Below are positions 6,419 to 62,470 of a stretch of DNA of 64,000 nt, piece after piece. Numbering within the stretch: position 1 is the stretch's first letter; every line of letters begins with the position of its first letter. Source of the DNA: Macrotis lagotis (lineage: Eukaryota; Chordata; Mammalia; Peramelemorphia; Peramelidae). The position numbers and the translations under genes are program-made. Where the stretch lies: NCBI RefSeq assembly GCF_037893015.1, contig NC_133663.1:142297297-142361296 (forward strand). Direction: 5' to 3'. Below the pieces are notes generated by a model that saw only the letters and a program-made list of their open reading frames with translations, was not told the origin of the DNA and ran no database searches.

Positions 6419-9400
6419 AATAGAGAAAGAAGAGATTAATAAATCGGGTATCAACCAAAAAAATGTAGACAAAGAACAAATTATATATACTCTTTTAAAT
6501 ACCAATTTAGAAATTCTGAAAATCACAGGAGAAATTAATAAAATTGAAATCAATACAGCTATTAATCTAATAAATAAAACTAATAGTTTTTTTTGAAAAA
6601 CAAACAAAATAGGTAAACATTTGACTAATCTGCCTTGAAAAATAAGAGGAATACCAAATTACCTGGATCAAAAATGAAAGGGAGTGAACTCAACAATGAG
6701 AAAGAAATAAAAGTGATAATTTGTGTCTATTTTGCCTAACTGTCTATCAATAAATTTGACAACTTGAGTGAAATATATGAAGGTACAAAAATACAAATGA
6801 TCAGATTAACAGAAGAGGAAATTAAATACTTAATTAAACCCATTTCAGAAAAAAAAAATTGAAGAAACCATCAATAACCTCCCTACAGAAAAGTCTACAG
6901 GTCCAGATAGATTTACCCATGAATTCTACCAAACATTTATAGAATGATTCTTCATCAACTCTTTTTAAATAATAAGAGAAGAAGAAATTCAGCCAAATTC
7001 CTGTTATGGCACTAATATTGTGCTGATAGCTAAACCAGGAAGAGTCAAAAATACAAAGAAAATTATAGAGAAATCTTCCAAATGAACTTTGATTCTAAAA
7101 TCTTAAATAACATTTTATAAAAGAGATTACAAAATTTTAAAAGGATAATACACCATGATCAGAATTTTTACTGGGAGGCAGATGGTTCAATATTTGGAAA
7201 ACACTTAAGTTAGTTGAATATATCAACAACAAAGACAACAGAAATCATATGATTATCTCAGCAGATACAGAAAAGCCTTTGAGATATTTCAGCATCCATT
7301 CCTATTAAAGCATTGGAGAATATAGGAATAAATGAAGTTTTCCTTAAAAATAATAAGCAATATCTATCTAAAACAAACAACAACTTTAATATGTTATTGT
7401 TATAAACTAGACTGTTTCCAATAAGATCAGGGTGATACTGGAATGCCCATTGTCACCATTACTATTCAATATATTTTTGGAAATGCTTACTTCAGCAAAA
7501 GAGAAGAAAAATAAATTGAAGGAATTAAAATTGGCAATGAGGAAGCAAAACTTTACAGATTATATGATAGGATATTTAGAGAAACCTAGAAAATAATCTA
7601 AACACTACTTCAAGCAATTAACAAATTCAGCAAAGTATCAGAATATAAAATAAGCACATATTATTTCTATATATCAGCAACAAAGCCCAAGAGCAAGTGA
7701 TAGGAAGAAGAATTCCATTTAAAGAAACCACAGACAACAGAAAATACTTAGGATTATTTCTCATAAAAGAAACCCAGAAACTTTATGAACAACTGCTAAA
7801 TACTTTTAACACAAATAAAGTAAAACCTGAACATTTGAAAAAAATACATAAGTTGCTCACGGTTAGGCCAAGCTAATATAATAAAAAATTGACAATTCTA
7901 CCCAAATTATTTTTACTTATTTAGTGCCATGTCAATCAAACTACAAAATACCTGTTTTACTGAGCTACCAAAAATAGTAGCCAATTCATCTGGAACAACA
8001 AAAGGTGAAGAATATCAAGACAATTGATGATACAATTTAAAGGAAGATGACCTAATTTTAACTATTCTATAAAGTGATAGTCATTTGGCACTAATTAAGA
8101 AATAGAGTAATCGTCCAGTGGATTAAAGCTAGTAGAAAATGATTAGTAGAAAATGATAGTAGTAAATGATCAATCAATTGTTTGACAAATCCAAGTACAT
8201 TAGTTTCTGGGAGAAGAATTCACTATTCATGAAAAACTATTGGAAAAACTGGAAAAGAGTAAGGCAAAAACTATCACTCATATCTTGCACCATTTACCAA
8301 AACAAGGGCAAAATGGATACAGAATTTTGACATAAATATGATGCCTAAATTTTGATTTATCTTTGAAAAATTAACACATCAAGAAATCCTCTCTCTGATG
8401 GATCTATGGAAAGGGATGAAATTAATGACCAAATAACAAAATAGAATACATTATAAATTTTTAATATGAATAACTTTGTCTGCATTCAAATGTTTTTGTA
8501 CTAACACACCCCATGATGACATGATTAGAAGGAAATAGAAAGCTGAGAAACAATATTCACAGCAAGAGTTTCTGATAAAGGGTTCCTTTCTATAACATAT
8601 AGTCAACTGAATCAAAATTTTAAGGTCAGAAGTTATTCCCTAATTGAAAAAAATGGTCAAAGGACACCAACACATATATTTCAAAAGAAGAAATTAAAGT
8701 AAACAATTGTATGAAAAAATTCTTCAAATTATTATTGATTAAAAATGTACATTAAAGCAATTATGAAGAGCCATCTCTTATCTATCAAATTGGCATAAAA
8801 GGAAAACAATCAATGATGGAGAGGTTGTGGGCAATAATGCACTCTTGATGAAGTTGTGAATTACTTCAACCATTCTGGAGAGCAATATGGGGAACAATGT
8901 TCAATAGTTAATGAAACTGATTATACCTTTGTCCTAGCAATCCGAATGCTATGACTATATCCAAAAGAATCACAAAAATGGAAAAAAAATCTTGCATGTT
9001 CCAAAATATATGTAGCAGATCTTTTTTTGTACTGGCAAAAAAATGGAAATTGAGGAGATACAAAATAATTTATGGCATATGGATGTTATGAAATACCATT
9101 ATTCCATAAGAAATCATGAATGGTTCAACTCTAGAGATGCATGGAAAGAATTAAGGGAATTGATGCTGTGAAGGTTGCAGAACCAAGACAACATTGTACA
9201 CATTAACAACATTTTGAGTTAATCTACTATGATAGATGTAGCTCCTCTCAGTAGTTCAGAGAGTTAAGACAGACCTGGGAGACCTGTTATAAGGCAACAC
9301 CATTCACATCCAGATGAAAAAAAAAAAAAACAAAAGAAATACAAAAAACACAGTATCTTAATGAATATTATGTTCACTTCTAAAAATGTTCTGTTATGTT

Positions 9401-12026: not shown

Positions 12027-14135
12027 GTTTCAGAATTTCCTTCCAACCTCCCTTTCCACTGCTCTTTCTTTAGCAGTGAACAGTCAGGTTAGCACTGTAC
12101 AGACATATTTTGATAAACATGTGTAGAGATAAACTATTTTTGGAATGAGTAAATAGGATTAAGGGAAAGAGATACATAAGAGATTTTTTTATAAAGTGTT
12201 CATCAGATTCTGAAGAGCTGTTGTTGTTGTTGTTGTGTGTTGTTTTCTCTTTTGTTTTGTTTTTCTTCCTCTGGATGGGGAAAATATAGTCCACAGCCAG
12301 TCAAATAGAATTATCCTAGCTCTCTGGACTGCCAAGATGAGCTACTTCCCTCAAATTGTTCATCTCATAATGTTGTTGCTGATATGTACATTGCTCTCTT
12401 GGTTCCATTCCCTTCCCTCAGCATCAGATCCCTTAAGTCATTCCATGCTTCTCTAGAGTCCACCCTTTTATGGTTTCTTATAGAATAAAAGTATTCCATA
12501 GTATCCATGTACCATAACTTTTTTAGTAATTCCCCCATTGATGGGGAACTCCTCAATTTCCAATTCATTGTCACTACAAAAATGGCTGCTATGAATATTT
12601 GCAACATCTTCTGGATATAAACTTAGACTTGGAATTGCTAGATCATAGAGTATGAATAGTTTTATTGCTCTTTTACCAAATTTCCTTATTGCTCTCCAGA
12701 AAGGTTGGATCTGTTTACACCTCCAGCAGCAAAGCATTAATGTTCTAGTTTTCCCACAACCATTTTCCCTTTTTCTCATCTTGACCAATCTGATAGGTGC
12801 AAGATGATACATCATTGTCATTTTAATTTGAATTTATTTAACCAGTGATGATTTGGAACATTTTTGTATGATTTTATATATATATAGCTTTTATTTCTGC
12901 CTTTGAAAACTGTCTGTTCACATCCTTTGACCATTTATCAATTGGGGAATGACTTATTAATTTTATAAAATTCTCCATATATTTTAGAAATGAGACCTTT
13001 ATCAGAACTCCTAGTTGTGAAGATTATTTCCTAGCTTTCTTCTTTCCTTCTAATTTTGGGAGCATTGATTTTATTTGTACAATTTATTTTTTACATTTAC
13101 TAAAATAAAAATAATTCATTTTGCAGTTTATAATGTGCTCTAATTCTTGACTGCTCATAAATTTTTCCTCTTTCTATAGATATGATAGAGTATTTCTTGG
13201 TTTATTAATTTGTCTATGGTATCACTCTTTATGTCTAAATCTAGTTTCCATTTTGAGCTTATTTTGGTATAAGTCCTCTTTTCCCAACCATTTTTCTCAA
13301 ATAGTTAGATCTTCTCCCAGAAACTGATGTCTTTGGGTTTGTCAAATAGAAGATTGCTGTAGTGATTTACTGCTACTTCTTTTGAACCTATCCTAATCCA
13401 TTGATCCATCACTCTATTTCTTAACCAGTACCAGGCAGTGTTGATGGCTGCCACTTTACAGTATAATTTTAGATCTTGTAGAACTAGGCCACCTTCCTTT
13501 ACATTTTTTCCATCAGTTCCCTTCTATTCTTGCCCTTTTGTTGTTCCAGAAGAATTTTGTTACTATTTTTTTCTATTCCATAACATATTTGGTGGTTAGA
13601 ATACTTGTTCTAAAGGAAATTATGAGCAGGTAAACTTCAGAAAAAACCTGGAAAGACTTACATGAATGAAGTGAGTAGAACCAAAAGAACACTGTACACG
13701 GTAATAACAACATTGTATGATGATCAATAGATTTAGCTCTTATCAGTAGTGGAATGATCCAAGGCAATTTTGAAAGATTTGAGATGGAAAAAAAATTAAC
13801 TTTATGCAGATAAGGAACTTAGAGTCTGTCTGCAGAATGAAGTACATTATTTTCAATTTTTGAATTTTTTTTCTGTTTTTTTTTTCACTTTTGGCCTGAT
13901 TCTTCTTTCACAACATAACGAAAGTTGAAATATATTTAACATGATTGCACATCTATAACCTTAATCATATTGCTTGATGTCTTGAAGAGGAGGGAGGGAA
14001 TGAATTGAGGAAGTGGATATTGCTAAAGTGGATATTGAAAGCTTTCTCTTCTTTCCTTCTCTCTCTCTCTCTCTCTCTCTCGTTATGTTTACATACATAT
14101 TGTAACTGGAAATAATAAACTAGTATTACTTAAAA
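10545..14135 (+). mobile_element. Plus-strand L1, 5'UTR to 3'UTR, split by a nested L1
   Basis: 10545-10870 is a moderately GC-rich L1 5'UTR, and 10870-11340 looks like ORF1 5' sequence. 11350-11928 is the ORF2 C-terminal region (WGITEQV near 11900), so much of ORF1/ORF2 is deleted. The element resumes at 13602 with the ORF2 tail (KTWKDLHE-like at about 13640) and a 3'UTR running to an AATAAA/A-rich end near 14135, with a (TC)n tract at 14058-14082. The two halves join in register across the nested element once one copy of the target repeat is removed. All frames are broken. Confidence 0.75.
11940..13600 (-). mobile_element. 5'-truncated L1, minus strand, nested with TSDs
   Basis: From the left: (TA)n (about 11967-12023), the L1 3'UTR block, then on the minus strand the ORF2 C-terminus. 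One frame (12365-12607) reads SSPSMGELLKKLWYMDTMEY then SIRNHKRVDSREAWNDLRDL; a second frame (12468-12821) reads [17 protein letters not shown]2 middle sequence continues to about 13600. Flanking repeats ATACTCGTTCT (11929-11939) and ATACTTGTTCT (13601-13611), 10 of 11 matching, support a target-primed insertion into the plus-strand L1. Confidence 0.85.
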
Positions 14136-14935
14136 AAAGAAAAATTATTATTTAAGATTAAAGATGAAATCTTCCTAATATAAGAGAAATATTACATGAG
14201 TTCAAATAATCATTTTTGATTTAATATGGTTTTTGTTTGAACCTATAAAATTAAGTGTCATTAATGTTCAGTAAATGATTGAAAATATAACTTTATTAAT
14301 TACCCTACTTAATTTGAAAATCATAGTAGCTCATCTACATATTTTCATTTTTATAAATCATAGCTTGATGTAGTAGAACATTCTTAACAGTCAATTTGAA
14401 TAAACCTTTTAGTAGAATTCCATAATAAAAAAATGGTTAGATGTACTTAGGATGTGCTAAATTCTTTAGTTTCCAAGACAATTCTACAAGCTGAACTATA
14501 GTGATTGATTAAATATATTGCTCAAATACATTGAAAACCATAAGGAATATCTAAGATGTCTTACTAACATTTTTATATATGCAAAAACAATTTTATTCAG
14601 AATACTTTATAAAATTAGACAAATAAATAGAAATTCAATTTCTCAGGTGGCCTGAAGTTCTAAGGATAAAGCTGACCAGTAAGACAATATGTAGTACCAC
14701 CTACCTGATCCCCCACTTTCAAATTACAATAGTAGTGCATAATGAAATGAAATAAAATTTTAGATAAAACAAACATATTCTTGGAGAAGGAAAAAAAATA
14801 CACACTTAAAGAAATAAGAGAAGATTTTGCCCATTAAAATAAAATTGATCTAAATCTCTTTTGTAAATGCTTTTATCTTAGTGATGTTGCTTCTAACACT
14901 GAGATGGATCAATAAGTGGAACACAAATATTACTT
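14136..14935. other. AT-rich unique-looking sequence
   Basis: No gene, RNA or repeat family recognised. Confidence 0.5.
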
Positions 14936-15115
14936 ACTTTATTCCATAAGTAATTATTAAGCACTTATATTAAAAAGAGACTGCATAGCTCAAAAAGAAT
15001 GATGACATAGCACTATCTACCAGAGAGTTTACAATCTAGAAAATAGATAAGACATATTAAGAAATCCCTAAATATGAAACTAGAAGCATTTACTAAGAGG
15101 TATGAAGGAGGGAGA
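14936..15115 (+). mobile_element. Possible L3/CR1-type LINE relic
   Basis: Contains TTATTAAGCACTTATATTAA, then CAGAGAGTTTACAATCTAGA and AGACATATTAAGAAAT in the order seen in L3/CR1 3' ends (TTAAGCACCTACTATG..., GAGCTTACAATCTA...). Strongly decayed. Confidence 0.45.
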
Positions 15116-15117
15116 CA

Positions 15118-15280
15118 ATCTGGCACAGAAAGAAAAAAAACTATTACTTTGGAATCACAAGATCCAAGTTTATATGCAAGACATTCCTCTTATTAATTAT
15201 GTGATCCAGAGAAATAGCTTAATTTGGGGGGGCCTCAGTTTACTTACCTATAATAAAAGAGCCTTATAGAAAATGACTTT
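15118..15280 (+). mobile_element. MIR/MON-type SINE relic
   Basis: Shows the MIR core order: a TTTGGAATCACAAGATCCAA block, TTAATTATGTGATCC, then GGCCTCAGTTTACTTACCTA and a short TAATAAAA end. Divergence is high, as expected for this old family. Confidence 0.65.
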
Positions 15281-15984
15281 TATTGTTCTTTTCACCTTAA
15301 AATGTATCTCATCTGAAGAGGTGAATATCATGACTTTTGAATGGGAGTCCAGGAAAAACTGATTCTGGAGAAGGATCTTTATGATTGATTAAAACAGCCA
15401 TGGGAAAAACATTTATATGATGAGAAAAAAGACATAGAGACAACAAATTATAAAGTTCATTTGGTGGATAGCATATAATTTAATGAGGCTAGAATATCGA
15501 TTTTTTATTGAAGGCATAAATAAACCCATGATTTCTGTATACTTTCATTGACTTAAAAATAACTATTAATTTAATCAATAGTAAAAATAAATTTATTCAA
15601 CATTAGGCAAAGTGCTTGTGTAATCAATTGTTTACCCATTTATACTGTTTCATAACTTTTTTCAATGTGATCACTTAATCTAAAAGAGCAGATTCAAAAC
15701 TCGTCATTTTTTCACTTTCTGTGAAAATGATTGCATTTCTGTGAAAGTATATGTATATTGCATATATATGTATATACATATATATATGTACACCTTATCT
15801 TTTTATACACTACACATATAGGTGTATATACAGCTATATAAATATAGATTTCTCTAGAAAGAGATCTATAGTTATGAAAATCTATCTATAGACATCTATA
15901 TCTAGATGGTCATTTTCCAAAGAGAACTTATTCAAAGTCCACTAGTAATGTCATTGCCTTACCTACAAATTGAAAATTTTGTAC
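15281..15984. other. AT-rich unique-looking sequence with TATATG repeats
   Basis: No gene seen. A TATATG/ATATAC microsatellite-like cluster lies at about 15745-15795, and short ATCTATAG repeats follow to about 15905. Confidence 0.5.
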
Positions 15985-15997
15985 CAGATAAACTCTT

Positions 15998-16156
15998 TAA
16001 ACTTTTTTATTTTTTATTTTTTGCAAGGCAAATGGGGTTAAGTGACTTGCCCAAGACCACAAACTAGGTAATTATTAAGTGTCTGAGATCGGATTTGAAC
16101 CCAGGTACTCCTGACTCCAGGGCCAGTGCTTTATCCACTATGCTATAGCCATCCCT
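15998..16156 (-). mobile_element. tRNA-derived SINE, minus strand, with 13-bp TSDs
   Basis: Full-length SINE of the marsupial tRNA type on the minus strand. It is flanked by perfect repeats CAGATAAACTCTT at 15985-15997 and 16157-16169, so its ends are exact. Its tail (T-rich on the plus strand) lies at 15998-16022. Confidence 0.95.
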
Positions 16157-16169
16157 CAGATAAACTCTT

Positions 16170-16480
16170 AAGTCTTTCTTAACACTATCATTTCCTCTTC
16201 TTCTTTATAGTTGTCATAGATGACAGTTTTTGTGGGTACTTTATTGATCAGTTTATTCCACAGTCATTTTATATGAATACACCCATACCCTTTGCATATT
16301 ATTTTTACTTTTTTTTTCCATTTAAGTCATTTCTGGTAATATGTTGCAACTATTTTATTCTCATAATCTGTGACTATTGCCCACTATTTCCCTTTCAGGC
16401 ACCTGTAATTCTAAGTTCATGGTGTTCCATGATTGACAGACATATGACATACCTAGAGAATTTGTCTATTGCTTTTGTCT
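16170..16480. other. Unique-looking sequence flanking the DIO2 retrocopy
   Basis: No gene or repeat recognised. It ends at the target site of the DIO2 retrocopy (TTTTGTCT/AAAAAG, an L1-endonuclease-like site). Confidence 0.45.
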
Positions 16481-16684
16481 AAAAAGTATTTCCTGTTGCT
16501 GCACAAGTCACAGCCTTGGAAGAAGAGCTTTTTCTGGAAGAACCTGTCCAACCCCTAGGTAAAGCAAATTCAGTTCCTCAGACTTGGGGCTATTCATTCC
16601 TTCAGAAAAGGTAGAAGAATTCTGAGCAACTTCTTGACTAGGAAACCAGAGAAGTCAAGCAAAGTAACTGAGGAGGTGGAGAAG

Positions 16685-17488
16685 ATGGGTTAACTAAACA
16701 TAGACCTGTTGATTACACAGAAAATCCTGTCATTTTTTTTCCAACTACCTTTTCCTGGTTCTTGGTAACTCAGGCATCCTCCTGAAGCATGTAGTGCTAC
16801 TGGTGAGCTGGTCCAAGTCCATTCATGGCGAGTAGTGGCAAATACTGACCTCAGAAAGACTACACTGTGGCTGAAAAAACTTTCTCTTGAATGCTCTCAA
16901 AAAGGTGAAATTGGCTGGAGGCACCCGCAATTCCAGTGTCATCTACATTACCAGTGCTGAAGTTGGGAACAGTCATCAAAACAATTGCAAATGGAAGAGC
17001 ATCGATGGGGGTTATGGATCTGAGTGCTATCTCCTGGATTTTGCCAGTCCTGAGACTCCACTAGTTGTCAACTTTGGTTGAGCCACTTGACCACCATTTA
17101 TAAGCAATCTATCAGCCTTTAGCAAGCTGGTGGAAGAGTTTTCAACAGTGACTGACTTCTTGTTGGTCTACATTGAGGAAGCTCATCCATCAGAAAGTTG
17201 TCCATGCCTGGTAACTCCTCTGTGTTTTTCTAGGTGAAGAAACACTGGAACCAGGAAGACCATTGTGCAGTAGTCCATCAGTTCCTGGAGGAATTCTACT
17301 TGCCACCCCAATTCCAGATGATGACTGACTGCATGGATAGCAATGTCAACATAAACTATGAGGTATCCTTTGAGTGTGTGTGTGTATTGTGCAGAAACAA
17401 AAATGCTTACTTAGGAGGGAAGGGTCCCTTTTTCTATAACATTCAGAAAGTACGACTTTGGCTATAGAAGAACTTCAGCAAGAGATGA
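16685..17488 (+). pseudogene. DIO2: DIO2 processed pseudogene (type 2 iodothyronine deiodinase)
   Basis: DIO2 is an ER-membrane selenoenzyme that converts T4 to T3. The copy starts at ATG 16685 (MG*LNIDLLIT versus MGILSVDLLIT). It passes through GILLKHVVLL, TSERLHCG*KNFLLNALKKVKL, LLDFASPETPLVVNFG and LVEEFSTVTDFLLVYIEEAH, then VKKHWNQEDHCA, AYLGGKGPFFYN and ends KNFSKR-stop at 17488, the usual DIO2 C-terminus. The coding intron expected about 75 codons in is absent (CG*KNF reads through), so this is a retrocopy. The selenocysteine TGA is kept at 17088-17090 (ATUPP), but the preceding Ser is now TGA (17079-17081). Other lesions are TAA at codon 3, TAG at 16833, TGA replacing Trp at 16872, a frameshift near 17205, Glu to TAG at 17231 and TAG at 17465, plus an indel near the first membrane segment. 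At about 268 codons it is near full length. It cannot encode an enzyme. Confidence 0.95.
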
Positions 17489-18149
17489 AACCCAGGTTAA
17501 CTGAAGAATTGAGTTTCATAGTAGCCTATTAAAATAACAAAAAAGGTGGGGGGATGGAGAAAGAAGGATGTATTGGATCCCCAATTTCAACTGGATCTCC
17601 GTAAACCTCTAAGAAGTGTAAAACCAACCCTCATAAACCATCACGTGACTTACAAAATAATATTGACTAACCAGCAATCCCTTGTTGCCTTTCCACTTTT
17701 GAAAAAAGTGCCTAAGAGGAGTAGGAAGAATCTATTTCAAAGTGTTTCCATCCTAGCTTGAGATGGAATTAAAACAATTGGTGCTTGCCTTCGGAAAAAA
17801 TGAGAAAATAAAACCCATGCTAGAGAAATGCTAGGGTGGGAAAAAGACTCTTTTAGAATAGGAACTATTATCTTAACTTTATATACCACGGATGCAGAAG
17901 ACTGTTGGTAAATCCTTAGGTATTTCTTTATAGTGAAACTGGGGGAGATGGGCAGGGAGGGAAAAGAGGGATAGTTCACATGATTGTTGTCCTTGTTTTT
18001 AGAATAATGGTGTCTTCTCTGGATCTCTGTCTCTCTCAGTATTCTCTGTAAAATGATGACTGAAACATCCCATAATTCTCAGGATATTTAGGGTAGTTAT
18101 TGACTAACTTCTTTCAATGTGAAGGATTGGGTTACTCTGGTCAAGAGGT

Positions 18150-18305
18150 GCAGTAGTTGTAGGAACTATACTGGACATGGAGTTTTATTTCTATCATTGA
18201 CTAGTTGTGGGGTCTTAGGCTAATCAATCAATGTTGCTGGTCCTCAAATTTGCTCATCTGTATACTGAGGGCATTGGATTAGATGATCTTCAAGTCCTTT
18301 TAAAA
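18150..18305 (+). mobile_element. MIR/MON-type SINE relic inside the DIO2 3'UTR copy
   Basis: Shows GACTAGTTGTGGGGTCTTAG, CAAATTTGCTCATCTGTATA and GATTAGATGATCTTCAAGTC, the order of the MIR/MON tail. Because MIRs are older than this retrocopy appears to be, the relic was probably already part of the parental mRNA. Confidence 0.6.
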
Positions 18306-21300
18306 TTTAAAACCATAAAATTATCTGATAATAACAGATAGGGAAAAAAGGCTCAAAGAGCAGGAGAATGGAAAACAAATTTTTATTCAATAATGAGAGA
18401 GAGAGAGAGATAGAGATGAGCAGAGGTTTTGCAATTTTTTATATAAAGTAATATAATTGTCTGTAGTTTGTGTATTTGAAGTGGGGGATTAAATGAACCA
18501 TGATACCTGACTAAGTATGAACTAATGCCATAGGTTGCAACAGTGCCAAGCATTGAAATGGATACATACCTTCCCTCATTCCTTGGCATGGAATATCTGT
18601 TGTTCTCCATAATGATGTTCTATATGTTAAGCTGAAAATAGTTTACTCATATTTCATGAATGTTCTCAGCTGCCTTATGGGGAATGATTCTCTGGTTGCT
18701 CAACTATTTATAAAGTCTTATTGTCCCTCAGAAGTAAGTGTGATGCAAAGACACAAATAGAGTTTCCTTTGATACATAAGCATCAAGTCAACAAGCATTT
18801 GTGAAGTGCCAGAGAAGGTAAGAGACAGCTAATTTGGGATGAACACCATCCGAATATATCAACTTTTTATACTGAAATCCACACTGACAGTCATTGGGCT
18901 TTGTTATTACAAAATTTTCACCTTTACACAAAATTCAAAATTGGATCTGTCTTGGGCCTCTTTCACCCAAGGAGGTATATTTTATTGAAGTCTGTAAAAG
19001 TACCCAAATATGTTTCTTAACTATAGGGTAGTCTTCTACACTATCCTATTATGTACTGTGGATGGATTTTTATAAAATTGCAAGGTTACATAAAACATCT
19101 TGAGAAGAGAATAAGCAGTTTTTCTCAGAGGTCAGACTTTAGAGATTACTTAAAAGCTAGGTAATAAAATGTGAAATAATTCTTTTCTTGTTATTTTGAA
19201 AAATTTAGATATCAGTATGAGTGTTTATGGACTTAACTCTTAGTTTTTAGTAATTTTAAGGAAAACTGAACTAGAAACAACAGCACTAAGCTCAGGTGAT
19301 GACATCTGAAAATAAGAATAGGAATGGATTGCAAAGATAAACTCATCATCCCATTTAGAAAAGTCAGAAACTCAAACTATAATTGAATATCACAAAACAG
19401 TTTCAAAATTGGGGGAAAAATAAATTCTGAAGTACAACTCAAATTTATTTCTCTACTAATTCACCTAAGCTTGTCACCTTTTTTGATGTTTTATCCTATT
19501 AACCAAATAGGTAGATAGAATTGCAAGAGTATAGTTATTTAATGAAATGGAAGTAAACAAAATAGTTTTAAATTGATATCAAATATTTACATGATACTGA
19601 ATTTTTCTCACTTGGACTTTTTTGCATTAAAAAATCATTGGTTCATTTGCCCAGTTACTTTGTTTTTCAGAATGGGATTATGATGTATATGGTGCCCTTA
19701 TCACTGACACTGTAAGAGTGATGTTTTCCTTGGAAGTGTCTACTTGTTTTGTTTTTTCTTCTCCCATGTACAGAACTGGTATAGTAAGTCAAAGAAGGTG
19801 GGTGGAGGGAAGATGAGATTCGAAGAAAGTGATGCTCACTGTCCAGAAAATGGAGTGGAAATAAAATACTTCTCTATTCTAATTTTGTTACAAGTATGTA
19901 GAAGGAAGTCTGGAATATCATAGGTTAGTCTTCTTGCAAAGGAGGAGGCAGTAGAGAAACAGAGCATTGGATATTAGTAAATGAAAGGTCAGTTGTCAGG
20001 GGGAAAATTATTTTTAATGGGGAGGTACATCTACAAAGAACACATTCTCCAAGGAAGAGCATGGAAACATTACCATGACACAAGGGCAAAGAAATGTAGT
20101 TACATATAACCCAATTGATACCTCTTAACAAGCATGACCTGAGAGGTTGCTTATGTCTCTGTTTACAGAATATACTTCTGAGTCTTGCCAGAATTTATTT
20201 TCACACATCATAATAATTGTCTGGGAGATGAAACATCATCTTTTTGCTGCTAATCTTTCATATATGTATGTCCATATACATGGATATGTACTACTATACT
20301 ACAACAACTGTAATTTAGCATCCATTCTCTCGCCTTTATCATTTTACTTTGACAGACTATATCTATATGGGTCTCTCAGTTTAAATATGTTAACTGGATT
20401 AGCTTGTATATTATTGAAATAGTTTTCTAGCTACTTATGACTTTATTAGAATCTATGGATCAATATTTTATATCAATTTTCAAAGGTTTATGTCATAGAA
20501 CTCTTTAAAATTTTTTAAATTACTTAGAAGAATGACCAGAACTTTCTTGAATAGACATGAATAGAATGTCCATAAAATATTACCTGACATATTTAATACA
20601 ATATTAAAATAGTTCCTAAACTCACAAGAGGGAAAAAGATTAGTAATAGTCATCCATCTTTGCATATTTGAAGTGATAGTAATTTAACTTTACATCACTA
20701 GTTTTCACCTATTTGGAATTCTTCACATTTGCCTGATTTTGTGCATCACTGCTTTTTAAACATTTTAATCATCTGGTAAAGCAAATTGTTACTCTAACTA
20801 ATCATTTTCCCAGTTAATGTAGAAAATACCCTTAAGCCCCTCACTCTGTCCCTTCTGAATTCTTGCTCCCAGTCTGGGTTCCTAGATGGAAGTGATCAAA
20901 TACACTGAGTGATTTACTATATGTAACTTATAGGTGCCAGAGGGATGGAGATAAAGATGATCTCTTTCATTTTGTAAAACTTCTTGGTTTTACTTAGGTG
21001 CCTTCTGTACCCTAACTTCTACGGATCATGGATATGGAGACCTCTGGGATGATAGAAGAAATGAGAGAAACTTACCTCCTATGAACCTAAGAAAGGTTGC
21101 CATCTCTAGAGCTGAGACCAGTCTGATCTCTGATTCATCAATCTAAAAAATAGAGTTCAGTGAGAATTTCATTTTTATTTGTGAAGGCAGTCTCAACAGG
21201 TGAGAGACTGTTGGGAAAAAAAAATCAACATTTATACACTTCCTTAATATCTAACTCTGTCATTTTCTCAATAGTAGTAGTTGCAAGTAAAACTCTTAAA

Positions 21301-21990
21301 TTGCAAAGCAAAGTCCCAGCTGAAATAATTGGTTTTGGTTATGCCTTACCTCCTGTCTTAAACCTAAGGAAAATCCAAGTCATTTTACTCACATTTCATA
21401 GTCCCACTGTTTCCATATGTTTCCCACTTTGAGGTGGGAGTTCCCTCAAAATGACAGAATAGCTCTACAGGTGAAGGATATTGGAGAAAGGAGAGGGAGG
21501 ATTTGTATGGTCAAGATTCTAGGTCCTAGCTCAGTAGAAGTAGGAAAAAAAACATCTTTCTCATATTACTCCTCAAAGCAGTACTGCTAAGGACAGAATG
21601 GGTTAACAGTCGTTGGTTTTCTGGCATCCTGATTCTCAGTGGTTATCAGAAGCAAGGTTTCTGAGCAGAGAGATGCTGTTCTTTTATTTTTTTAATGACA
21701 GTTAATAGAAAGCAAATTATTAACAATGCATCAATTAAGTCTCTTAAATAAAATAAATCTGATTCTGGATGGTAGAGTTTCAGGAAGTTTATTATTTAGT
21801 GATTAGATGATGTAATCACTCTTTGACTCCACTAATCATAGCAATGATTTTTTTTTTTAAATGTGAATGAATAGAGCACAAATTAATGGGAAAAACCTGT
21901 AGAGAGAAGTTTCCCAAGTCTTGGGCAAGCTATATCACTGAATGACATCGTTTCAATGTGATTGGTGGTGGTGGTTTGGAGCAGCATTGA

Positions 21991-21993
<3 letters not shown>

Positions 21994-22051
<58 letters not shown>

Positions 22052-22080
22052 TATACATATATATGTATATATATATATAT
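21994..22080. repeat. (AT)n microsatellite
   Basis: About 50 bp of perfect AT dinucleotides followed by an imperfect ATGTACATAT part. It lies in the 3'UTR portion of the DIO2 retrocopy. Confidence 0.95.
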
Positions 22081-22240
22081 TCAGTAATACATAACCAAAG
22101 CAGTGAAAGGCATTTTGTAGGTGTGTAAGGAATATTGACCAGAGTTGTTCAGTAGTGTATCATGTTACCACAGTCCTCATAATCACTAACCCAAGGCGTT
22201 GGGCATCTAAAGAGGGAGACCAAGTTGTGGAAGGGCTACC

Positions 22241-22310
22241 AGTGTGCAAATGGTGATTCCTAACAAGAGTCATGCACTCTGTTAAAAGTTGGATGTGGTC
22301 ACAGTGGCTT
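22241..22310 (+). other. Probable SECIS remnant of the DIO2 retrocopy
   Basis: The block AAATGGTGATTCC, then AACAAGAGTCATGCACTCTG and TTGGATGTGGTCACAGTGG resembles what I remember of the human DIO2 SECIS (ATGA core, GAAAGAGTCATCGACTC loop region, GGTTGGATGTAGTCACA). It also sits where DIO2 SECIS elements sit, close to the poly(A) site. The ATGA quartet reads ATGGTGA here, so it is probably decayed. This rests on recalled sequence. Confidence 0.55.
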
Positions 22311-22546
22311 GCCTTTGCCTTATATGCCTTTCAGCCTCCATAGCACAGAGATTAATTTGGTGGGTGATATGAGGACTTGCTAAACATATTGAGGACACAA
22401 GTGTATGTGTGTCCACGTGCATGTTTGTATGTATGTGTATCTGCTTATCCATGGTGGAAAGAATTGTTTTGAAAAATGTCAGCAAGAAATGATTTACACT
22501 ATCGGTGCTAAATAGAATGTGTGCTTTAAAAATTTCCTTGTATGAT

Positions 22547-22573
22547 AATAAACCCTAAAGAAAGAAAAAAAAA
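22547..22573 (+). terminator. Poly(A) signal and A-tail of the DIO2 retrocopy
   Basis: AATAAA at 22547-22552, then CCCTAAAGAAAG and an A-run that merges into the right target-site repeat. It marks the 3' end of the copied mRNA. Confidence 0.85.
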
Positions 22574-22583
22574 GTATTTCCTG

Positions 22584-23740
22584 AACTTTCAAGGATAAAA
22601 TCAAAGATATCATTTAGAAATTATGCAATTTATAACATGTTCCCCAAATTTAAAATCATATTAAAGTGGAGAAAAAATGACATAATATTGAAGGCAAAAC
22701 AAACGTCTCCTTGGGCAAGAATAAATGAAGTGCAATTGTATATTTGTTAAAATTTGTAAATGAAATACAATTGAAAATATGGAAAATAGAGATTCTCCAA
22801 TCACTTAGATTTGATTCTAAGTAAATTTCTAGGTTAATCTCTTTTTTGAATAGGTGAATATATCTGAATGGCTCTCATTGAGAAGGTCTTATATGATAAA
22901 AGTAACATCATATTCTAGCAATGCTACCTTGTAAAGACTTTAGAGTAAGAGGGAGATCCTTTTTGAAGAGTACAGGAATATGTAAATAAAATTTTCTGGC
23001 AATTCTATCAAATACATAGGTGGATAAAATGTACATTTATGGATAGAGACCCCTCACTAGTGAAAACATTGATATATCCAATATTAAAATATTTATATAG
23101 ACATTTTATAAACAAGTATGGATATAGATGCATACACATAATAATATCAAAAATATACTCTTCTATAATGTTGCAATTAATTCTTAAATGAAGGTTTTTC
23201 ATCATTTTTCTTTTCTTTAATTCAATTGAGTTGCAAAGTATATGCTAAATTATATAAATATAAATTATTTTTGTAACATAATTCAAATTCCAAAATTCAG
23301 TTCCATAAGTAATAAAATTTGCCTTTTGAAAGCTCAACAAAAATATTTATTTTATTGACTTAACATTTTTTCTCCTTATCTGTCTAAAATCCAAATTGCA
23401 AACATCTTAATGGACTGCTAGAAGCATTCTTTTCAACATAATTCATAATACATATGAATTATTTGGGGGAAATATCAATTTTAATGAACTTTCTATTTAC
23501 AATAATAGCAAAAATAGTATAGCAACATTATGACAAAACAGAATTAAATTTATCCAAATAAATGAATATTTGCTTTTAAAAGTTGGAAAAGCTCTATAAT
23601 ATCAACAAATCCTTGAACTTTTAGTGTTTCTTAAAATTAACTGCTACTTTTTTGTAGGATAATATAAAGATAATATTAGTAAGCAAAAGTTGATGGCTAG
23701 CTTTCAATGGAATTTAATTAGATTATTCCTTTAGGGATGG
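22584..23740. other. AT-rich unique-looking sequence
   Basis: No gene, RNA or repeat family recognised; open frames are short and low complexity. Confidence 0.5.
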
Positions 23741-23744
23741 TTTG

Positions 23745-24032
23745 CCCTTAGAGTGTGGACTTGGAGATAGGAAGAATTATCTTCAAAACAATTATCTTCT
23801 TTAACAATAAAGAGATCTATGCTTAAATCGTGCTTCTGTTAATTAATTAATGTGAGTTCTTGAAAAGAGACAACTTTCAGGTTTTCTCATCAATGGAATG
23901 AATGGTATCAGTAATAGTATTAGGATATTTCTCCTAGTGTTCCTATGAAATTCAAAGAAAATATTTTATAAACACAGTTTGCAATCTTTGAATAGAAATA
24001 GCTATTGCTATTATTATTATTATTATTATCTT
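23745..24032 (+). mobile_element. MIR/MON-type SINE, near full length
   Basis: Begins GTGTGGACTTGGAGATAGGA, then a CTTAAATCGTGCTTCTG block, the TTCTCATCAATGGAATGAAT block and a tail with TTTGCAATCTTTGAATAG ending in ATTATTATT. This is the order of MIR elements from tRNA-like head to 3' end. Confidence 0.75.
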
Positions 24033-25575
24033 TAAATAGTAATATAAATTAATAGAGCTAGCTATTTCCTTTCAAAGTGTAGTTTATTGCCTTTATTTTT
24101 TACTGTAAAGTACAGAGGTAAAAATATCTGATTGTAATAAAACATTAGAAGTAAAGAGCATATCTTGAAATCAGAGCAATGCAAGTCTTGGATATAGAAA
24201 ACACTAAAATATTTGTTTAAAAAACATATTAATTACATAAGTTATATATAAATATATTATAGAGAATTAATTCTGTTATTTTTTTCAAATTTAAGTGACC
24301 TATGAAATATTGAAATAAGAAGAAATTGACTTGGTTGAAAACTAGTTAGTCATTCTTCCAGCGTTACATTTAATTTTATCTCCTCTCATTGAACTGAATT
24401 CTATTAAATTTCCCCTGGCAGCTTAATTCAAAAGAAGAGGAAATGATGTTTTTATGGACCCTAAAAGGGTTTATAGATGATGCTGTCATTTGTCTGTAAA
24501 ATTTATGTAGGTTATATCTTTAGAGACTGAAGGATATGGAAAGTGAATTCAAGATTTATTGTTGCATTATGTTAATTGTGAATGCATAGTGTGTCATGGC
24601 AAATATACCACTTAGAGGAGCTCTAACCTAGCAAAAGGATAAATAACTTTAAAAAAAAGGAAGCTGCAGCAGTCATTCTTTTATTCACCCCTTTTTCTTT
24701 TAACAAGGTTTAGCCAACTATATTTTTTTCAATTACAACTTTCTTTGCCTCTCAGAATATGTTGTCTGAAGATTATATAAATCAAATTCAATGTAAATTA
24801 CAGTAAAATGCCAGCTCTATTCAAGAGTCAGATATGCCAGCTAAGTGGTGTAGCATTCTGCATTAGCAGAGAATTACATTGCAATGGGCTGAAGATTTTA
24901 CTTCAAAGAAATTGTACTTAATGAAAGTGACCACAAATTTAAGTGGTCTGTATTCATTGACTTCAAGAATACATGAAAGGAAATGGCCATTAATTTGTAA
25001 AAAAAGACAAGAATAGAGCAAATCTTGAGTAATATATATGCATAATTGCTTTTACTCAAACAAATAGATATTTTTCTTTATGAAGCTAGGTGACCAATAT
25101 ATTTGGTTTTCCTTTCTATTGTTGCACATGAAGTTATTTTAAGTAGATTTGATTTTTTCAATGTGAATTGTGTTGTATATAAAAATGGTTTTCACATATT
25201 GATCAGTATTACATTTTAAAATTACATATTTAGAAATTATACATTATTCTAATACTGAAAATGGTCATTCTCTTATTAGTATTTGAGTTATTTCCAATAC
25301 TTTAGCATTTAAAATTATATCCATTGATGTATATACAAATATGCCTATGAAAATGCAATTGATCTTTGATAAATGCATCTTTTCCCTTCCTAATTTTTTG
25401 CATATTATTTTAAAATATGAAATTATAAATCAAAATTAATTCTTTATTTAGGTATTTACAAACTAAACAGATTATACCTCATTATAAAATTTTAATTTGT
25501 TAACACATATAGAAGAGTGATATTTCGATCAGATCTAAAATTAATGAGAACAAATAAGGTTATTCTGAGAGTTGG
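24033..25575. other. Unique sequence, more complex in 24350-25000
   Basis: No gene seen. The part at about 24350-25000 has fewer homopolymers and more balanced composition than its surroundings (blocks such as CCAGCTAAGTGGTGTAGCAT and GAGAATTACATTGCAATGGG), so it is a candidate conserved noncoding stretch; not testable here. Confidence 0.4.
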
Positions 25576-27703: not shown

Positions 27704-28818
27704 TCATATTTCCCCCCTCTCCTCCAATCTCCATGCTTCACCTGAGTCCTGTATCTGAAGATCAAACCTTCTCTTCAGCTCTGGCCATTCCAAAAGGAAC
27801 ATTTGAAATTCCCCTAGTAGATTGAAAGTCCATCTTTTTCCCTGGAAGAGGACATTCAGCCTTGCTGGGTAGTTCATTCTTGGCTGCATTCTAAGCTCTT
27901 TTGCCTTCCGGTATATTGTACTCCAAGCCCTATGAGCTTCCAATGTAGTTGCTGCTAAGTCCTGCGTGATTCTGACTGCAGCTCCACAATATTTGAACTG
28001 TGTCCTTCTGGCTGCTTGTAATATTTTCTCTTTGACTTGGGAGTTCTGGAACTTGGCTATAATATTCCTAGGGGTTGGTTTTTTCGGATCTCTTTCTCGG
28101 GGGGAACGATGGATTCTCTCCATTTCTATTTTGCCCTCTGCTTCTAGAATATCAGGGCAATTTTCCTGTAGTAATTCTTTGGAAATGATGTCAAGGCTCT
28201 TTTCCTGAACATGATTTTCAGGTATTCCAATAATTTTTAAATTATCTTTCCTAAGTCTGTTTTCCATATCAGTTGTTTTTTAATGAGATATTTCACATTT
28301 CCTTCCAATTTTTCATTCTTTTTTGGTTTTGAAGTATTGATTCCTGATTTCTGGTAAATTCATCAATCTCCCTGAATTCTGTTCTTTGTCTGAAGAATTT
28401 GTTCTCCTCAGAGAGTTTTCTTATCTCTTTTTCCATCTGGCCAATTTTGCTTTTTAAAGCATTCTTCTCCTCAATAACTTTTTGAACTGTTTTATCCATT
28501 TGACCTAAGCTGGTTTTTAGTATGCTATTTTCTTCAGCATTTTTTTGGATTTCCTTGACTAAGCTGCTGACTTCATTTTCATGTTTTTCCTGCATCTCTC
28601 TCCTTTCTTTTCCCAGTTTTTTTCCAACTCCTTCATTTGATTTTCAAAGTCTCTTTTTTGAGCTCTGTCATAGCCTGAGCCCAATTTCTGTTTTTCTTGG
28701 AGTCTTCAGATGCAGGAGCTTGTGCTTCCTCATCTTCAGACTGAGTATTTTGATCCTTCTTGGGTTCATTTGCAAAATATTTCTCAATAATCTTCCTCTT
28801 ATTTCTCTGCTTGCTCAT
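27704..28818 (-). CDS. L1 ORF1p-like gene of the ORF1-only element (broken)
   Basis: L1 ORF1 proteins are RNA-binding chaperones that form trimers and package element RNA. Start MSKQRNKRKIIEKYFANEPK at 28818. A charged coiled-coil follows (28595-28293: KTSLGQMDKTVQKVIEEKNA and so on). An RRM-like domain begins at 28267 (LRKDNLKIIGIPENHVQEKS, with ERIHRSPRERDPKKPTPRNI), then a C-terminal domain with VRITQDLAATTLEAHRAW and FQGKRWTFNLLGEFQMFLLE up to the stop at 27704. The three parts lie in different frames, so at least two frameshifts break it (near 28620 and 28290); no domain is missing. About 370 codons is usual for mammalian ORF1p. Confidence 0.85.
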
Positions 28819-29441: not shown

Positions 29442-30686
29442 AGCAGTTGACTTCTCACTACAATGCAGTCCAGGTCCCTGAAGCATATGTACTGTCAGTT
29501 AGATAGCAGACCAATAAGGAGGGTCCTACCTACAGAAAGAGCCTGAACCCTGAGGACACACGGGTAACAGAGAGGACTAGGTTGCAAGAATCCTTTCCAT
29601 GCTAGGCTGCATGGACAACATTTTGGCAAAAACAAAATGCTAGAGGTCAGACCCCAGTCCCAGAATGAAAATTTTGGACCTAAACTCCCTCCATCCCAGA
29701 GGCAGACTTCAAGAATCAAAATGAATTTATAAGAAACCATACAAAAATGAGCACTAAACACAGAAAATTCTATTCAGTTAGAGAAGATAAAAATGAGATC
29801 TTAGTAGAAAAAAGCAATGACAAAGTACCTATAGGGGAAGTCTCAAGGGAGTTTATGAATTAGACTCAAATTCAAAACATCATAGAAAAGCTTAAAAACA
29901 TTTTTAAAACCAAAGAAATGAGGAAGAAGAAAAAATCGAAAACAAATGGGAGCCAAGGAGGAAAATTTTTTTTAAAAATGACCAAATAAATCAACTCCTT
30001 TAACAGTAAGAAACAGCAAACTGGAAAAAGAATGTAACTAACTCATCAAAAAATAAAATTGATCAACTGGAAAGAGAATGTAACTCAACATAAATTAAAA
30101 TCAGCCAACTGGAAAAGAAACAACAAATGTCAACTGAAGAAAATAGAACCCCAAAACTTATAATTGAACAAATAATAGCTAATGAATCTGTGAGGCACCA
30201 AGATTCCATGAAACAAAATGAAAAGCTTAAAAAATTGAAGAAAACAAAAAAATACCTTTTAAGAAAAATAAATGCTGTGGAAAATAGATCCAAGAGAGCT
30301 AATTTATGAATTAGTGGTATTTCTGGAGACCTCAAACAACAAAAGTGTCTGGAAAAGATCTTTCAGAAAATTACCATAGAAAACTTTCCTAAGGTACTAG
30401 ATCAAAGAAGACAAATTGTCCTTGAAAGAATATACAGAAAACCTCAAGAAAGAGATCCAAGGATAAAAACTCCAAGGACTATCATAGTTGAATTCTCACA
30501 TAACATAAAATACTGCAAGCAACCAAAAAAAAAGCAATTTAAGCCACAATCAGGATTATAGAAGAATTATCAGTACAACATTAAAAGAATAGAGTACATG
30601 GAATATGATATTTCTGAGGGCAAATGACTTTATATTACAACCAGCAATTTACTGTTCTGAAAAATTCATCAATTCTGTCAATGAAA
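29442..30686 (+). mobile_element. L1 5'UTR and ORF1, plus strand (right part of split L1)
   Basis: Continues the L1 that starts at 26667. 29457-29760 is 5'UTR, and ORF1 covers about 29760-30640. The open part at 30127-30309 (MSTEENRTPKLIIEQIIANE, then a Lys-rich coiled-coil) is followed in another frame by ISGISGDLKQQKCLEKIFQK and QERDPRIKTPRTIIVEFSHN, the RRM-like domain of L1 ORF1p. It is older and more broken than the nested ORF1-only element. Confidence 0.75.
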
Positions 30687-31560
30687 AGGATGGATTTTCT
30701 TTTTTTCTTCTTATAAATATTTTATTTGTTCTCCAATTTTAAACAATAGTACTTTATACTTGTCATTTTTATAAGTTTTCAATTTTACAATTTGTTCTCC
30801 ACCCTCTCTTCCTTCTCCTCCCCCCCACAGGTGGCAATCCGATAATCTTTGCATTGTTTCTATGCTATGTATTGATCAAAATTGAATGTTTTGAGAGGGG
30901 AAAAACATTTCCTTGAATAAGAAATAAAATATTAGAGTTAGCAAAGTTATGTAGTATATAAGAAAACTTTTTTTAAATTGAAGATAATAATCTATGGTCA
31001 TTGTTTAACTTCCACAGTTTCTCTGCATACACATGATATTCTCCATCACAAAAATCCTAAAATTGTCCAAAATTATTGAACTAATGGAATGAGCAGCTCC
31101 ATTAAGGTTGATCATCACCCCATGTTTCTGTTAGGGTGTATAGTGAGTGTTCTTCTGGTTCTGCTCATCTCACTCAGTATCAATTCATGCAAGATTATAC
31201 AAACTTCTCTGAAATTTCATCCCTCCTTGTTTCTACTAGAACCATAGTGTTCCATTACATACATGTACCACAGTTAATCCAGGCATTCCCCAAATGAGAA
31301 GCATCCCCTTGATTTCCACTTCTTTGCCACCACAGTGCTACTATGAATATTTTTGTACAAGTGTTAGTTTTACCCTTTTTCATGATCTCTTCAGGGTTTA
31401 AAACCCAGCAGTGGTAATGCTGGATCAAAGGGTATGCACATTGTTATTGCCCTTTGTGCACAATTCCAAATTGCTCTCCAGAAAGGTTGGATCATTTCAT
31501 AGCACTACCAACAATGCATTATTGCCCCTGATTTCTCTGGAGTGTCTGTGACCACAGCTA
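30687..31560 (-). mobile_element. 5'-truncated L1 3' end, minus strand, nested
   Basis: T-rich start (A-tail of the minus element), pyrimidine-rich 3'UTR block with TCCTCCCCCCCACAGGTGGC, then the ORF2 C-terminal coding region on the minus strand (31090-31510), whose plus-strand signature is GCTCTCCAGAAAGGTTGGAT. It interrupts the inter-ORF region of the plus-strand L1. Exact target repeats not resolved. Confidence 0.8.
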
Positions 31561-32779
31561 TAATACTAAAATTCTCTTAAAAATATGGATTAATGTAAAC
31601 TCAATCCTAATCTATTTATATCCAGTCTTTTTAAATATGCTCCCATTCTCTGTCCCTATTGTAATACAACCCCCTATAACTAAGTGTTAAAGGGAGAAAA
31701 TGTACCTTATTCTTTGGTTGAAGAGAGTTTTAGTGCTATGGTTGGAGTACTATAGAGAAGGAAGCAGTGAGTGTACTTAGAGCCACTGCACATGAAATTA
31801 TCTTGAAATATTGTGGTTTACTTGAAACTTTTACTATAATTAGATGGAGTGTGCTTGGGATGGGGGAATTTAAATGGTTCATGAAGTGATTTGGCTTTGT
31901 AGGATGCTTTAGTACATGAGGATTGGGTGTCTTTGGAGGGTACTTGAAAAGGGGGAAGATATAAAGTGATTATCATTTGAGTGATTCATGAATTTTGAGA
32001 AGTGTATTTCTAATGAGTGAGAGGAGATGAGAGTACTGAGACAATGCTGTTTATCAATTATTCAGTCTTTGAGAATAGAACTTCCAACTGCACAGATATA
32101 AAGAGTATATTTTGACAAAAGGGTTTTAAGTACAAGACAAGGTTAACATAATAAAAAAACATAAAATCAATAGCTATACTAGAAGAAAACCAGGCATTAC
32201 TCAATGCATAACAACAGGTAAAGAGGCACAAAAAACTATTATAGTATGGGGGAAAAGGGAGGTGTGAATGTTGACTAAAGCTGCTCAATAGATTTCCCAG
32301 TGATTCAATAATATACAGTCTGAAGTGGGTTTTAATAAATGGGAAAAGGAGTAAAATGTCGGTGAGGAGGAATAAGAGCAAAGAATGACAAAAGTATAAA
32401 TGGGAAAAGATAGCCTGGAGAGAAATGCAGTATTAGTAATCTTAATTGTAAATGTGAATTGGATGAACTCTCCCATAAAATGGAAGCATATAACAGAATG
32501 GATTACAAACCAAAATACTACAATATGTTGTTTAGAAGAAACACATTGGAAACAGAGATACATATGGAGTAAAGGTAAAGGCTGGAGAAAAATATGTCAT
32601 GTTTGAGCAGAAGTAAAAAATATCAGAGTTAGTGATTCTGATCTCAGACAAAGCAAAAGCAAAAAATAGAATTCATTAAAAGTGATAAGGAAGGAAACTA
32701 CAATCTCTTAAAGACATCATGGGCAATGAAGTTATAACATTATTAAACATAGTACACCAAGTGGGATAGCATCCAGATT

Positions 32780-32930
32780 TTTTTTTAGGTTTTTGCAAGG
32801 CAAATGGTGTTAAGTGGCTTGCCCAAGGCCACACAGCTAGATAATTATTAAGTGTCTGAGACCGGATTTGAACCCAGGTACTCCTGACTCCAAGGCTGGT
32901 GCTTTATGCACTACGCCACCTAGCCACCCC
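32780..32930 (-). mobile_element. tRNA-derived SINE, minus strand, in L1 ORF2
   Basis: Full-length SINE on the minus strand. It is flanked by AGCATCCAGATT (32768-32779) and AGCATCCAAATT (32931-32942), 11 of 12 matching, so the insertion into the L1 endonuclease region is well defined. Confidence 0.93.
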
Positions 32931-35571
32931 AGCATCCAAATTCTTAAGGGAGAAGGTGAATTAATTACAATGAGACAAAACTTTCTTAATGGGAGACCTA
33001 AACATCCTTCTCTCAAAATTAAATAAATCTATCAACAAAATCATCAAGAAAGAAGTTAAGAGGGTGAATAAAATTTTAGGTAACTTAGACATGATAGAAC
33101 TCTAGGAAAAAAATTGAAAGGGAATGGAAAAGAATATATCTTTACCTTTGGAGTACATGGTACATGGTTAAACATTTCCTAGGGCATTGAAACATTAAAA
33201 TCAAATGCAGAAAGGCAGTAATAATAACTACATACTTTTCACATCATGATGCAATAAAGAGTACATGGAAAAAAGTACCATGAAATGATAACCCAAAAAG
33301 TAATTGGAAATTAAATAATTTTATTTTAAAGAATTAATGAATCAAGCAGAACATCATAGAAATGATCAATCATTTCATCCAAAAATTATAACAATGAGAC
33401 ATCATACCAATAAAGGGGAAATTTTATATTTCTAAATGCTTATATGAATAAAAAAGAGAAAGAGGAAATAAATGAATTGAATATGCAATTTAAAAAACTA
33501 GAAGAAATTAAAAACTCCTATTAAATACCAAATTAATCATTCTAAAAATCAAAGAAGAGTTTAATAAAATTGAATTCAAGAAAACCATTAATATAATAAA
33601 TAAATTTAGGAGCTATTTTTGTGAAAAAAATAATAAAATAAACTTTTAGTTAATCTGATTTTTAAAAACAGAAAGAGGAATGCCAAATTGATCAAAAATA
33701 TAAAGGGTTAATCCACCAGTAGTGGGAAGGAAATTAAAAAGATAATTCTGCTCATCCGTATGCCAATAAATTTGACAACTTGAATGAAATGAATAAATAA
33801 TTACAAAACTACTCAGATTAACAGAACAGGATTTAAAATACTTAATTTCCTATGAAAATATGTCCAATTTCAGATGGATTTACCTGGGAATTCTACCAAG
33901 CTTTTAAGGAACATAATTTCAATTCTTATGAAATGCAGAAAATCAGAAATATAAAATGCATTATTTTCAGATCACGATATAATAAAAATCAAATAACGTA
34001 ATAAGAAAACAGAGACTAAACCAATTGAAAACTAATTAAATATAATAACTTAATTATAAGGAATGAATGGAGGAAACAACAAATCATTGAAATAGTTAAT
34101 AATTTGATCCAAGACAATGACAATACTGAGATAACATACCAAAATTTATGGGATATAGCCAAAACAGCTATTAAGGGAAATTTTATACTTCTTAATTTAT
34201 ACATGAATAAAATAGAGACTGAGATCAAGGAATTGTGAACTAAAAAGCACAAGGTAAAAATCCTAAATTAAATGCCAAATTATAAATTCTGAAAATCAAA
34301 GAAAAGATTAATAAAACTGAAAGCAAGAAAATTTTGAACTAGTAAATAAAACTAACAAAATTTTCCTAATAAAAATGGTAACAATTAACTTTTTAAAAGT
34401 AGGAAGATTTTAAATAAACCCACATAAATCATTACTGTTTCTATATATTGTCAACAAAACATAGGAGAAAGAGGTAGAAAAAGAAATTCCATTTAAAGTA
34501 ATCTTAGATAACATAAAATTCTTTGGAGTCTGCCTACCAAATCAAGTTGAGAAGCTAAATGAAATCAATTGCAAAAAATTTTCCCTCAAATGAAATCAGT
34601 CCTCAATAATTTTTCAATGAGATAGTTTTATGAAAAAAGCCAATGAAAACATCAAAAATGTTTTAAAAGATCTAAGAAAACAAAATCACAAATGAAAAGC
34701 ATGAATTCACCACAAATGAGGAAGAAATTGAAATAATAATCAGATATTTTGCCCAAATATATGATAATAAATCTGACAACCTAAGTTAAATAGATATTCA
34801 TAAAATATAAATTGTCTAGATTAAGAGAAGAAATTTAACACTTAAACAACCTTATATCAGAAAACGAACTTGACCAAACCATCAATGAACACCTCAAGAA
34901 AAAAAATTATGGGTCAGTGAATTTTATCAAATGTTTAAAGAACAATTAATTCCAGTTCTATATAAACTTCTTTAAAAAAGTAGATGAAGAAGTTTTGCCA
35001 AATTCTTTCTATGACAACAGTAATTGACCTGATGCCTAAACCAGGAAGAACCAAGACAGAGAAAGAAAATCATTTACCAATTTTTCTAATGAATATCAAT
35101 GCAAAATTTTAACTACCATACTAACAGAGTATAGAACATTATCACTAAAATAATACATAATAATCAGGTATGATTTATACCAAGAATACAGAATTTGTTC
35201 AATATTAGTTAAACTCTCAACATAATTGACCAGATCAATAATGAAACTAACAGCAATCAAATGATTATTTCAATATATACTAAAAATCTTTTTGAGAAAA
35301 TACAACACCCATTTCTATTAAAACACTAGGGAGGATAGGAATAAATGGAATTTTCTTTAAAATTATAGGAAGTATCTATCTAAAACCATTAGCAAGAATT
35401 ATTTTCAATTTGCATTAAGAGAGAAGAATTCTCAGTAAGTTCAGTGATGAAACAAGATGAAACAATACCATCACTAATGTAAAATAGCATATTAGAAATG
35501 CTAACTTAAACCAGAAGAAAAGAAAAAGAAATTGAGAAAGTTAGAAAAGGCAATTAAGAAACTAATTTCTC

Positions 35572-62458: not shown

Positions 62459-62470
62459 AAATGGGTAATT

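Follow-up and report, generated by a model that had tools for sequence, protein, structure and literature searches.

A nearly complete DIO2 retrocopy with an upstream, non-canonical first exon in the genome of Macrotis lagotis

We analyzed a 64,000-nucleotide stretch of the Macrotis lagotis genome on contig C6 (NC_133663.1; C6:142297297-142361296), hereafter the window, which contains an intron-less copy of the mRNA of the deiodinase gene DIO2. The copy occupies window positions 16496-22564 on the forward strand and is 6069 nt (~6.07 kb) long. We interpret it, with a probability of about 95%, as a processed pseudogene: a LINE-1-type retrocopy of a spliced, polyadenylated DIO2 mRNA that began in an upstream, non-canonical first exon, and which has since decayed neutrally. 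An earlier reading, made from the letters of the window alone (the sequence-only reading), had described the locus as a DIO2 retrocopy bounded by target-site repeats and including a very long 3' untranslated region (UTR), and these descriptions hold. The coordinates of all features are given in Table 1.

Table 1. Features of the DIO2 retrocopy in window coordinates
Feature	Positions	Strand	Basis
5' target-site duplication AAAAAGTATTTCCTG	16481..16495	+	exact repeat
Retrocopied exon 1, non-coding	16496..16640	+	alignment to parent 16989-17133; 9/144 aligned positions differ
Retrocopied exon 2: last 44 nt of 5'UTR, start codon (ATG 16685-16687), first coding part	16641..16904	+	BLAST and alignment to parent
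Dead DIO2 coding sequence	16685..17500	+	6 premature stops, 2 frameshifting deletions; Pfam PF00837 in two fragments
Retrocopied exon 3: remaining coding part and 3'UTR (17501-22564, 5064 nt)	16905..22564	+	BLAST and alignment
AT microsatellite within copied 3'UTR, mostly (78 positions) without parent counterpart	21993..22080	+	alignment
SECIS remnant; parental core ATGA reads ATGG	22240..22307	+	no SECIS model match reported
AATAAA polyadenylation signal, common to parent and copy	22547..22552	+	alignment
Residual poly(A), 4 A ahead of A-rich repeat, possibly templated	22565..22568	+	junction sequence
3' target-site duplication AAAAAGTATTTCCTG	22569..22583	+	exact repeat

The parental gene was located by searching the genome to which the window belongs (3,655,600,598 bases in 607 contigs); these similarity searches score the best candidates only, so that all row counts are lower bounds. 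A 600-bp query from the copy found two genomic places among the matches listed, the copy itself and a locus on contig C4 at 87% identity. The deiodinase family PF00837 of Pfam matched eight times at four places: C1 (one match, with one internal TGA), C2 (three), C4 (two) and the copy on C6 (two). The C4 locus is DIO2, the live gene, and lies on another contig than the copy; judging by exon pattern, we take the C1 locus to be DIO3 and the C2 locus to be DIO1. The parental D2 reading frame is intact (272 residues, two in-frame TGA codons). Parental positions are given below as local coordinates in the 40 kb around the C4 match, where local x is C4:241753000+x. With the start and end of the parent mRNA set by those of the copy, the spliced parent measures 6331 nt, including a 3'UTR of 5323 nt. 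Literature searches aimed at a DIO2 retrocopy or pseudogene met no description of one, which is no proof of absence.

The copy reproduces a fully spliced DIO2 mRNA. Five BLAST pieces cover 16497-22568, with identities of 93% for exon 1, 83% for exon 2 and 84-86% for the three pieces of exon 3, and run collinear with parent local 16989-17137, 19945-20212 and 29950-35875. Aligned over its full length, the copy differs from the parent at 690 of 5908 aligned positions, a Kimura two-parameter (K2P) distance of 0.128. The parent carries 26 gaps (161 positions in total, one gap spanning 78), and the copy carries 41, which add up to 423 positions and include gaps of 132 and 95 as the largest. The copy begins with a T at 16496, where the parent has A. 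Both introns, of 2811 and 9741 bp, are missing, and the joins fall exactly on GT-AG boundaries: parent exon 1 (local 16989-17133) ends at the donor A/GTAAGT, exon 2 (19945-20210) lies between an AAAAG acceptor and a GTAAGT donor, and exon 3 (29952-35871) follows an ATATCAG acceptor. The sequence-only reading had named two findings that would refute it, and neither was made: the copy contains no intron sequence, and its ~5.1-kb 3'UTR aligns with the parental one as far as the AATAAA and 3' end common to both, with 556 differences in 4904 aligned positions. A genome query from the middle of the 3'UTR returned 29 rows, comprising parent and copy as long matches and 27 short rows that sit at query positions 101-247, a GA-rich stretch, one of them being the copy again.

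The junctions bear the marks of retroposition. The 15-bp direct repeat is exact and abuts the DIO2 homology on both sides, an identity expected by chance at one fixed register with a probability of ~1e-9 under equal base frequencies, and its length falls inside the range of LINE-1 target-site duplications (~7-20 bp). LINE-1 endonuclease nicks at TT/AAAA; the context at the 5' junction, TCT/AAAAAG (CT/AAAA), has one mismatch to that site and comes from a single site in AT-rich DNA. LINE-1 sequence occurs in the same window: Pfam identifies ORF1-type domains at 27704-28267 and, at 52511-53449, a reverse transcriptase domain. LINE-1 is the probable enzyme.

The position of the 3' end is corroborated by a second, 5'-truncated DIO2 retrocopy on contig C8 (C8:167306153-167306427; L017 about 1501-1786), which carries 286 bp of the end of the 3'UTR and is flanked by its own 11-bp repeat, AGTGAGTTATA. 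This independent copy ends at the same place after the parental AATAAA, followed by seven A, which supports that place as a true cleavage site. A three-way comparison of the shared 3' end (284 sites, 23 gapped columns left out) gave 34 changes unique to the window copy, 12 to the C8 copy and 4 to the parent. Judged by these counts, the window copy looks older than the C8 copy (34 vs 12, p 0.002), its 34 also including parental changes made before the C8 copy arose. The comparison of 12 with 4 changes (p 0.08, few sites) further suggests that the parental 3'UTR evolves more slowly than its dead copies. Mammalian substitution rates are 1.5-3e-9 per year; applied to 0.08-0.10 substitutions per site on the branch of the copy, they give an age of 27-64 million years (My), or 18-85 My if the parent is taken as neutral or as not evolving at all. 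The insertion would thus be tens of millions of years old, as an order of magnitude only. An age above 130 My, obtained with the devil rate that a bilby paper uses (1.17e-9 per generation, 2 years; PMC11239497), is not one we believe.

The copied reading frame is dead. Its premature stops lie at parent codons 3, 51, 64, 133, 184 and 262, and its two frameshifting deletions remove 2 bp and 1 bp, while both selenocysteine codons remain TGA (17088-17090 and 17486-17488). Differences from the parent are spread evenly over codon positions 1, 2 and 3 (43/272, 37/271 and 41/273; positions 1+2 vs 3, Fisher p 0.92). When the changes were polarized with the D2 chain of PDB 9h48 (198 columns, 8 skipped, 190 used), the copy alone had changed at 45 residues and the parent alone at 1, and all three differed at 5. 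CpG sites have decayed as well: 24 of 38 parental CpG read TG or CA in the copy, and 7 of 17 CpG of the copy do so in the parent. With neither an intact reading frame nor purifying selection on the protein, the locus is not a functional retrogene; the copy shows no coding constraint and has decayed neutrally.

The selenocysteine insertion sequence (SECIS) points the same way. The parental element matched the SECIS model at 28.6 bits (E 0.002), under the curated 35, and no match was reported for the copy at the threshold used for the parent. Rfam at gathering score returned nothing in the whole window, and with E up to 5 it gave no SECIS row in 14001-25000. By RNA folding alone the parental SECIS and its counterpart in the copy were not distinguishable, with z -1.05 for the former and -0.80 for the latter. 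The Musashi core motif GTAGT occurs 7 times in the copy vs 4 times in the parent; since the count is not lower in the copy, these motifs say nothing about decay.

The sequence-only reading had further called the copy full-length, from 5'UTR to poly(A). It does extend from a 5'UTR exon through the polyadenylation site, but it begins at an upstream alternative exon instead of the canonical TATA start, and it retains little poly(A). The copied 5' part is a separate exon of the parent; the TATA-box start known from human mapping lies ~2.3 kb downstream of it. Because this exon joins 44 nt before the ATG, a leader of ~680 nt with six upstream ATGs is skipped. The human DIO2 promoter, with its cAMP-responsive element (CRE) and transcription start, has been analyzed, and PMC4646574 supplied seven primer sequences. 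Three of them map in order to parent local 19051, 19251 and 19312 (span 19051-19332), with 19/22, 21/24 and 17/21 identical bases against 14, 15 and 16 for the best places elsewhere, and they adjoin TATATAAAAGG, the parental TATA box, at local 19282. This places human +1 near local 19310, inside the intron that the copy lacks. Counted from 19312, the canonical leader runs ~680 nt to the ATG at local 19989, and all but its last 44 nt is absent from the copy. The alternative leader is 189 nt long; the parental form has one upstream ATG, with a stop at once after it, and the copy has none. The site of one unmapped primer probably falls in a stretch of N. An N run at L003 9189-9252 (C4) lies directly upstream of the DIO2 TATA box, over the expected place of the CRE.

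The upstream exon shows no sign of a transposon-derived promoter among the matches listed, as it is itself unique and the DNA before it nearly so: exon 1 with the exon 2 leader matched only copy and parent, in three rows, whereas the 502 bp that run up to the start of exon 1 matched themselves and, weakly (73-80%), at least six places over a stretch ~370-480 bp upstream. We rejected TGTAAA, which sits at about -35, as a TATA element of this exon, and we do not claim constraint on parental exon 1 (9/144 differing vs 527/4846 at non-CpG 3'UTR positions, Fisher p 0.10). A human study places codon 92 of DIO2 in 'exon 3' (PMC4126657), and therefore human too would have a non-coding upstream exon and the exon described here may not be new. 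Those parts of the DIO2 leader literature that were accessible gave no account of it.

Taken together, these data are best explained by the following sequence of events. In the germ line of an ancestor, a DIO2 mRNA would have been transcribed from the upstream, non-canonical first exon. Splicing would have been complete, linking exon 1 to the acceptor that lies 44 nt ahead of the ATG and exon 2 to exon 3, and polyadenylation would have used a site still present in the gene. LINE-1 machinery would then have copied this mRNA into DNA, and integration at an A-rich target would have produced the 15-bp duplication. Germ-line expression of the copied isoform is implied by such heritable retroposition.

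Several observations weigh against this account. The nick site departs by one base from the LINE-1 consensus, and the poly(A) is almost gone: a nine-A run remains at 22565-22573, of which five A belong to the repeat, and four A stand at this place in the parent too. The joined flanks, searched against the same genome for an empty target, matched only the two flanks themselves among the matches listed. The 3'UTR is less diverged (11.3%) than the coding part (13.7-15.8%), for which slower evolution of the parental 3'UTR and base composition may be the causes. Regarding the first exon, four of the seven human promoter primers did not rise above background and one of the three mapped barely did (17/21 vs at most 16/21), and in the parent no TATA-like hexamer was found between -34 and -26 relative to the copied exon. 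This last absence would also fit a copy that falls short of the complete mRNA, either 5'-truncated within exon 1 or lacking further exons upstream, although it says little, as a site at such a distance is met at 10% of positions by chance. The strongly truncated C8 copy demonstrates that truncation occurs for DIO2 mRNA. The parent has no splice acceptor AG right before the copied 5' end, which therefore does not mark an internal exon boundary, and the copying extended over 6.07 kb, including both joins and the whole 3'UTR; truncation in exon 1 is compatible with both facts, and we give an incomplete copy somewhat under even odds.

Explanations that do away with a neutrally decaying retrocopy fare far worse. 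Nothing speaks positively for residual function in part of the copy, be it that of a retrogene or of a transcribed sponge RNA; what could be cited is a long 3'UTR that is mostly present and less diverged from the parent than the coding part. Six stops, two frameshifts, similar divergence across codon positions, the SECIS match reported for the parent alone and the excess of 3'-end changes unique to the copy (34 vs 4) make it very improbable. Least credible of all is a duplicated genomic segment with later intron loss, or an assembly artefact. A 24.7-kb tandem duplication in the window, unrelated to the copy, is possibly such an artefact, but the two introns of the copy were removed exactly at splice sites, and the window-parent BLAST matches outside the exons are dispersed or simple repeats. 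The target-site repeat, the 3' end at a polyadenylation site, the ~12% divergence and the different contig likewise argue for retroposition of an mRNA. The exact joins and the flanking repeat suffice to refute both of these alternatives.

The copy is thus an object of a known kind, a retrocopy, otherwise ordinary and notable for its length and for the alternative first exon that it kept. It resembles the LINE-1 processed pseudogenes of mammals in its lack of introns, target-site repeat, 3' end at the polyadenylation site, unconstrained decay and location on a contig other than the parent's. In its ~6.07 kb and retained non-coding first exon, it differs from usual mammalian retrocopies, which are described as often 5'-truncated (PMC13251070). 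Retrocopies of MIR302CHG have brought to light unannotated exons and splice sites of their parental gene, together with possible alternative starts (PMC7692494). The DIO2 copy is, like them, a fossil record of a parental transcript isoform, but its source is a protein-coding selenoprotein mRNA, and the isoform is known here from the genome sequence of one species alone. The canonical mammalian DIO2 mRNA has short open reading frames (ORFs) in its leader, which are reported to regulate translation, and a very long 3'UTR (PMC11301063). The copied mRNA shares with it the coding sequence, the SECIS near the 3' end and a 3'UTR of ~5 kb, and lacks the canonical leader with its upstream ATGs.

The copy preserves almost all of one ancestral DIO2 mRNA in DNA form. 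It shows that the very long 3'UTR, distal end included, was in use by then, and that cells permitting heritable retroposition made a DIO2 transcript with an alternative leader containing few upstream ATGs. By extension, marsupial DIO2 may have, or may have had, a germ-line-active promoter ~2.3 kb above the cAMP-responsive TATA promoter; its 189-nt leader has almost no upstream ATG and joins immediately ahead of the start codon, and such an mRNA would bypass the control that short ORFs exert on translation of the canonical mRNA. We offer this extension tentatively, as slightly less likely than not.

Further repeats lie in the rest of the window. To the left of the copy, at 16002-16139, is a SINE-like repeat (short interspersed nuclear element) that recurs in the DIO2 locus and at other places in the window, and which resembles the common marsupial tRNA-derived SINE. 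At 27704-28267 (-) is a fragment of an L1 ORF1-type protein with Transposase_22 RBD-like and dsRBD-like domains; the surrounding 27331-28740 matches DIO2 locus local 7857-9265 at 72%, and 27169-29055 matches 80725-82623 at 81% in inverted orientation. The ~24.7-kb tandem duplication is head-to-tail, with 99.65% identity between 29104-53792 and 53793-64000, and runs on to 78484 past the window. No N occurs in the window or in the adjoining stretches (L027/L028) that cover it, and it may be a recent duplication or a false assembly duplication. Just before its junction, at 51187-53449 (-), a LINE-1-like reverse transcriptase ORF of 312 aa (RVT_1, E 3e-44) is overlapped by a 452-aa ORF without a Pfam match.

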